Of a stretch of 64,000 bases of DNA, positions 12,110-12,841 are shown piece by piece. Every line of letters begins with the position of its first letter. The stretch's first letter is position 1. The position numbers were made by a program, and so were the translations under genes. The stretch spans positions 248,001 to 312,000 of the forward strand of contig NZ_JAEHHL010000001.1 of assembly GCF_016623495.1 (NCBI RefSeq). Direction: 5' to 3'. Source of the DNA: Thermohalobaculum xanthum (lineage in GTDB: Bacteria; Pseudomonadota; Alphaproteobacteria; Rhodobacterales; Rhodobacteraceae). The notes beneath the pieces were generated by a model, which was given only the letters and a program-made list of their open reading frames with translations, had not been told where the DNA came from and did no database searches.

Positions 12110-12190
12110 TCAGACGAACGCGATGGCCATCACTGCGGCGTAGAGGGTAATGCCGAGCGCGGCGGCACTGTAATACATGACGTCGAGCAT
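12110..12190 (-). CDS. 26-residue single-pass membrane peptide
   Basis: Starts MLDVMYYSAAALGI and is almost entirely one hydrophobic helix with no charged residue after Asp3. The ATG is preceded by gggagagaacgc, a good ribosome site. Upstream on the same strand lies an FNR/CRP-type dyad at the class II distance from a -10-like hexamer, the main reason to think it is expressed. I do not recognise a family. By size it resembles accessory subunits of respiratory oxidases (CydX-like), but no sequence link can be claimed. Confidence 0.6.
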   Translation of the reverse strand: MLDVMYYSAAALGITLYAAVMAIAFV

Positions 12191-12508
12191 GCGTTCTCTC
12201 CCGGGCAGATCGTTTTTCTTTTCGCCGTTGGTACGATAACCGCACCAGAGCCGAGCAACTTTGACATGTGTCAAAGGTCTCGATCTCCGCGCAACAATAT
12301 TGCAGGGATAAAAATTTATTGCAAGTGCGAAGTCGTGCTGCAAGCGCGAAAAAGCGCGCCACAAGGCACCCTGCGGGCGTTGCCGGGTGAAGCGGGCCGG
12401 TCGGGCCGGGCGTTGCTTGCATGGGGCGGGGGCGCCGTATATATCGCCGGTGCCTGCGCTCGCGACGTTCGTGGCGCGCCAGAAACAGTTGTCACGAAAG
12501 GAGTCCGC
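12191..12508. other. Divergent promoter region between the membrane peptide and yajC
   Basis: About 318 bases without a gene. Contents: the peptide's leader and -10-like TATCGT (12233-12238, minus strand), the FNR-like dyad (12260-12275), an AT-rich stretch around 12295-12320, a pair of 11-base direct repeats (12321-12331 and 12340-12350, one mismatch), and the yajC ribosome site aaaggag just before 12509. Confidence 0.65.
12260..12275 (-). promoter_or_regulatory. FNR/CRP-family-like binding site
   Basis: TTTGACA-TG-TGTCAAA: 7-base arms around a 2-base centre, containing TTGAC-N4-GTCAA, close to the FNR consensus TTGAT-N4-ATCAA. The centre lies 29.5 bases from the first base of a TATCGT hexamer on the minus strand, which puts it at -41.5, the class II activator position. 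Rhodobacterales carry FnrL and related Dnr regulators; which one binds, if any, is inference. Confidence 0.55.
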
Positions 12509-12841
12509 ATGTTTGCGACCCCCGCCTACGCCCAGGCCGCCGGCGCCGCGCCCGGTGGAGGCTTCCTGCCTTCGCTGCTGCCGCTGATCCTGATCTTCGT
12601 CATCTTCTACTTCCTGCTGATCCGCCCGCAGCAAAAACGCGCGAAGGAGCACAAGCAGATGATCGAGGCGCTGCGGCGCGGCGACCAGGTCGTCCTGGCG
12701 GGCGGCATCATGGGCAAGGTCGTCCGCGTCCGCGACGAGGACGAGGCCGAGGTCGAGATCGCCGAGGGCGTGAAGATCCGGGTGGTCAAGTCGACCATTG
12801 CCCAGGTCGTCTCCAAGACCGAGCCCGCGAACGACGCCTGA
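12509..12841 (+). CDS. yajC: Sec translocase accessory subunit YajC
   Basis: 110 residues: short Ala-rich N terminus, one membrane helix (about 22-40) followed by the family motif FYFLLIRPQQKRAKEH, then a small soluble domain (LRRGDQVVLAGGIMGKV). It forms part of the SecDF-YajC complex that helps complete protein export. The ATG at 12509 has an aaaggag ribosome site; the longer frame upstream starts in non-coding sequence. It lies 84 bases before secDF. Confidence 0.95.
   Translation: MFATPAYAQAAGAAPGGGFLPSLLPLILIFVIFYFLLIRPQQKRAKEHKQMIEALRRGDQVVLAGGIMGKVVRVRDEDEAEVEIAEGVKIRVVKSTIAQVVSKTEPANDA

Follow-up and report, generated by a model that had tools for sequence, protein, structure and literature searches.

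Within the 64-kb window (the whole stretch of DNA that was analysed from Thermohalobaculum xanthum, a marine bacterium of Limibaculum type) there is a short reading frame on the minus strand, lying between the housekeeping genes serS and yajC-secD. Its 26 codons run from 12190 to 12113, with the ATG at 12190 and the stop codon at 12112-12110. The gene serS is on the same strand as the frame and begins about 150 nt further downstream (start about 11960), and yajC-secD is on the opposite strand (start about 12510). The elements of the locus are as follows:

12110..12190, minus strand: 26-codon gene (MLDVMYYSAAALGITLYAAVMAIAFV) and its stop codon, a single hydrophobic helix without a basic residue
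12191..12226, minus strand: inferred 5′ leader of ~36 nt, with a ribosome site GGGAGAG at about 12196-12203, read from the sequence
12233..12238, minus strand: -10-like hexamer TATCGT, 22 nt from the dyad, with CATCGT at equal spacing in Limibaculum sediminis
12261..12274, minus strand: FNR/FnrL-type dyad TTGACACATGTCAA, centre 12267.5, read from the sequence, with an aligned copy TTGACACAAATCAA in L. sediminis
12290..12351, no strand assigned: AT-rich block between the dyad and yajC, 71% conserved, with two stretches exactly conserved

An earlier note on this DNA had described a leader, a ribosome site and a 26-codon frame encoding a single hydrophobic helix, all three of which are present in that order on the minus strand. 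The FNR/CRP-like dyad and the TATCGT -10-like hexamer that it placed before them are likewise there, on the same strand and 22 nt apart. The ribosome site preceding the frame is GGGAGAGAACGC, which contains GGGAG/GGGAGAG. The peptide has a 19-residue mean hydropathy of up to 2.06, with one acidic and no basic residue. Taking a 19-residue segment with a mean hydropathy of at least 1.6 as membrane-helix-like, we find such a segment in 3 of the window's 202 frames that start with ATG and have 20-40 codons, and among these three only the 26-codon frame has a ribosome-site-like sequence.

A DNA search of 61 genomes found the locus in a single relative, L. sediminis FT325. Between the frame and its orthologue 14 of 78 nt differ, 13 in third positions and one in a first position, and the sole residue change is Ser8 to Gly, at the only Ser codon of the peptide. 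Random placement of the same substitutions changed 8.3 residues on average, and in 20,000 such placements the number never fell to one or below. Each of the five other reading frames across the same block has between 5 and 13 residues changed. The 26-codon frame thus exhibits the purifying selection looked for in a translated small-protein gene. This nearly all-synonymous pattern of change is strong evidence, and unusually clean given the small size of the frame, for a translated and selected protein of 26 residues, and argues strongly that the frame is a gene under protein-coding constraint and not noise. The earlier note had made its case depend on conservation of the frame in relatives, and in L. 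sediminis, the single relative with the locus, this is borne out.

The ribosome site is identical in L. sediminis. The leader as a whole is 74% conserved, and the sequence after the stop, towards serS, is 55% conserved. A 1-nt indel in the leader lies ~20 nt before the ATG, just upstream of the ribosome site. This rules out a conserved N-terminal extension, and fixes the start of the frame near the ATG at 12190.

Upstream of the leader, the dyad matches the consensus TTGAY-N4-RTCAA perfectly in both T. xanthum and L. sediminis. The base changes in the L. sediminis copy stay within this consensus, while conservation is 27% in the bases immediately preceding the dyad. The earlier note had centred the dyad at -41.5 and expected that position to be conserved. 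The centre lies at -41.5 only if TATCGT occupies -12 to -7, from which the TSS is inferred to be 12226; on that assignment the spacing fits. Conservation of position holds for the dyad-to-hexamer gap, which is 22 nt in both species, and less well for the hexamer itself. In L. sediminis this is CATCGT, having lost the first T, so that the -10 is kept in position but is a weak match. A sigma-70 scan of the locus found no promoter. In a class II promoter the -35 element is not needed.

In Dinoroseobacter shibae the nosR2 and hemA3 promoters have sites at -41.5 (PMC5398030), and the published FnrL sites of R. capsulatus include TTGACACGGGTCAA and TTGACCAAGGTCAA, which are TTGAC-N4-GTCAA forms (PMC4634722). 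The FnrL regulon of R. capsulatus, R. sphaeroides and D. shibae has the same dyad type and the -41.5 geometry proposed here, and ccoN and hemN are among the targets that it shares with the T. xanthum dyads (PMC4634722, PMC5398030). The target descriptions in the consulted part of the R. capsulatus account include no counterpart of the microprotein (PMC4634722). The Iron-Rhodo-box (IscR) was considered as an alternative to an FnrL site; it is described in general terms, as a 19-bp palindrome resembling the RirA box, and the dyad here is TTGA-N6-TCAA, 14 bp in length, with just that part kept in L. sediminis.

FnrL is encoded in T. xanthum (NCBIfam equivalog NF045989, 360.9 bits against a cut-off of 300). 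Its 4.05-Mb genome contains the exact dyad TTGAYNNNNRTCAA 20 times, compared with 0 for the reversed control, and the L. sediminis genome has 32 exact dyads compared with 1 for the reversed control. The T. xanthum dyads lie, among other places, at the cluster of fnrL, hemN and ccoN, and next to the genes for Hsp20, FtsH, PEP synthase and a ClpB-like protein. At other dyad promoters in both genomes the -10-like hexamers lie at 22-23 nt, and in two of those in L. sediminis the hexamer is TATCGT, at 23 nt from the dyad. We read the locus as a standalone gene for a 26-residue membrane protein with an Fnr-type promoter, putatively of class II, and to the gene together with its Fnr-type promoter we give a probability of about 0.83. 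The microprotein gene is probably switched on at low oxygen, in keeping with the oxygen-regulated microprotein gene proposed in the earlier note.

The same gene and promoter could be served by a different activator, another Crp/Fnr paralogue of the Dnr/NnrR/FixK type that responds to nitric oxide or some other redox signal. Each genome has about ten strong matches to the Crp/Fnr-type HTH, and Fnr and Dnr sites have been treated as interchangeable in published work (PMC5398030). Against this, T. xanthum has FnrL itself, and its consensus dyads accompany genes that are well-known FnrL targets. We consider activation by such a paralogue unlikely, while keeping it in view.

There is one further exact copy of the 14-mer dyad in the T. 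xanthum genome (position 2545 of G000:C12:17700-22800). TATACT lies 23 nt away from this second copy, and 111 nt separate it from the gene for a 281-aa protein, which has a signal-peptide-like start and no NCBIfam match. Separately, an FtsH-family gene in both T. xanthum and L. sediminis has an Fnr-type dyad ~23 nt from a -10-like hexamer, and may possibly encode an oxygen-controlled membrane protease.

If the locus is a low-oxygen microprotein gene, its action might be as follows. When oxygen is scarce, FnrL in its [4Fe-4S] form, or else a closely related paralogue, would bind the dyad at -41.5. Class II activation would recruit RNA polymerase, compensating for the weak TATCGT -10. The sequence supports translation of a short mRNA from its own ribosome site to give the 26-residue protein, which on the basis of its hydropathy would be inserted in the inner membrane with a single pass. 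There it might, more speculatively, bind and tune some membrane complex that is made when oxygen is low. The cbb3 oxidase would be the first candidate for this partner because ccoN bears the same type of dyad, and the co-regulated FtsH protease would be the second; even taken together, we regard the two as tentative at best. Cytochrome bd was considered and excluded as partner because no CydA (PF01654) match is found in the T. xanthum genome, which is 99.94% complete. A PF01654 match is present in L. sediminis and in the congener G004.

Functionally, the closest analogue is E. coli YnhF/CydY (also CydH), a small subunit of cytochrome bd-I that is made at low oxygen and that, like the window peptide, is a single helix encoded by an unlinked solo gene (PMC6853902). 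It differs in that it has no sequence match to the window peptide, and in that T. xanthum has no detected bd subunit I. CcoM is a 36-aa subunit of the cbb3 oxidase of Pseudomonas stutzeri, tied to oxygen-limited growth (PMC10433244). It is longer than the window peptide, a PDB sequence search detected no homology between the two, and the window peptide gene is not linked to ccoNOQP. Comparison of the peptide with Pfam and NCBIfam models and PDB sequences at E up to 10 gave no match, nor is there any profile or sequence match to CydX, KdpF, CcoM or another catalogued small-subunit family. A frame upstream of KdpF in kdp operons shares with the peptide an MLDV[LM]Y start and a single helix of 26-27 residues, but the match is at chance level (E 0.26), the C-terminus is basic and no dyad was found nearby. 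In G234 this frame, MLDVLYFGLGAGGFALFALAVHRLERM, comes immediately before a KdpF-like frame and kdpA, at about 2295-2500 of the kdp locus L199.

Searches of three other congeners (G001, G003 and G004) did not detect the peptide; the G003 assembly is a draft, 85% complete, in which most of serS is likewise missing. In G001 the intergenic region between yajC and serS is about 265 bp compared with 550, and the peptide block is absent; a CTGGAAA...GATCG stretch adjoining serS persists. In G004 serS has different upstream neighbours, and the peptide was not found. A profile search of 395 other family genomes at E up to 10 gave no convincing match. Apart from the two genuine loci, its hits were at chance level, and the twenty of them that were inspected were rejected, being parts of other frames, kdp-linked or unrelated. 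Adjacency of yajC and serS is common in the family, and no peptide of this kind is encoded in the yajC-upstream regions of 29 other genera, where a perfect dyad is likewise lacking within 1 kb of yajC. There was no match to the peptide in the plasmid and phage collections.

Since the gene is found in two sister species only, a single branch of the genus would either have gained it or alone have retained it. The best reading is that it is a young and lineage-restricted microprotein gene, so far common to only these two species, and the microprotein is probably a new lineage-restricted case of a known class, that of single-helix microproteins under Fnr-type control. A more specific proposal is that an unlinked microprotein arose recently in one Limibaculum branch, was born directly under an FNR promoter, and was recruited to the cbb3 oxidase, or to a different membrane complex under FnrL control such as FtsH, as a dedicated subunit or regulator. 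We think this rather improbable as a whole.

A peptide that is hydrophobic, 26 aa in length, lineage-restricted and standalone might also be a type I toxin-like membrane peptide silenced by an antisense RNA. The usual type I toxins have terminal basic residues, whereas this peptide has none at either of its ends. Moreover, conservation of an Fnr-type activator site points to regulated use, there is no Rfam antitoxin match, and the peptide is absent from the plasmid and phage collections searched. We judge a toxin to be very unlikely. The same low standing is given to a dual-function low-oxygen small RNA that carries the frame, with the RNA as the main product. A short transcript is indeed expected, and the conservation of the leader would suit an RNA function, but the near-pure synonymous change indicates that selection acts on the protein. 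Downstream of the frame a search for a terminator gave none, and the post-stop sequence is conserved at only the 55% given above.

The position of the frame, on the strand of serS and ~150 nt before its start, could suggest a short-lived leader peptide or upstream frame that regulates serS. Yet the only Ser codon is replaced by Gly in L. sediminis, and no more than 55% of the sequence separating the frame from serS is conserved. From the inferred TSS as far as serS the degree of structure is unremarkable (z = +1.78), with no terminator found and no Rfam element, and the serS-proximal CTGGAAA...GATCG sequence persists in the congener that is without the peptide. A role in serS control is therefore most improbable. 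Finally, small frames are plentiful, with 202 of 20-40 codons in the window, but a chance frame beside a chance dyad is scarcely credible when both the coding and the dyad are conserved in the sister species.

A frame under the usual gene-calling size, previously unlisted, can thus be recognised as a selected gene from comparison of sequences alone, and its readable control signal predicts when to look for the microprotein. Two sister species have the gene, and the intergenic region of G001 and the family are apparently without it, which would make the gene tractable for studying how microproteins under oxygen control are born or lost. If the partner is a respiratory complex, the microprotein would join the unlinked oxidase subunits that are missed by operon-based annotation.

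Elsewhere in the region, an Rfam guanidine-II riboswitch match lies antisense inside yajC (12685-12731, minus strand). It scores 29.1 bits compared with a gathering threshold of 32, and is probably due to chance.

Within the AT-rich block between the dyad and yajC the two stretches that are identical in L. sediminis are GCGCAACAATATT and ATTGCAAGTGCGAA, read on the plus strand. The first of these, GCGCAACAATATT, occurs exactly once per genome. The block may possibly be a second control element or a divergent -10. On the plus strand AATATT lies 21 nt from the dyad in T. xanthum and L. sediminis alike, so that a divergent Fnr-type promoter directed towards yajC is possible.
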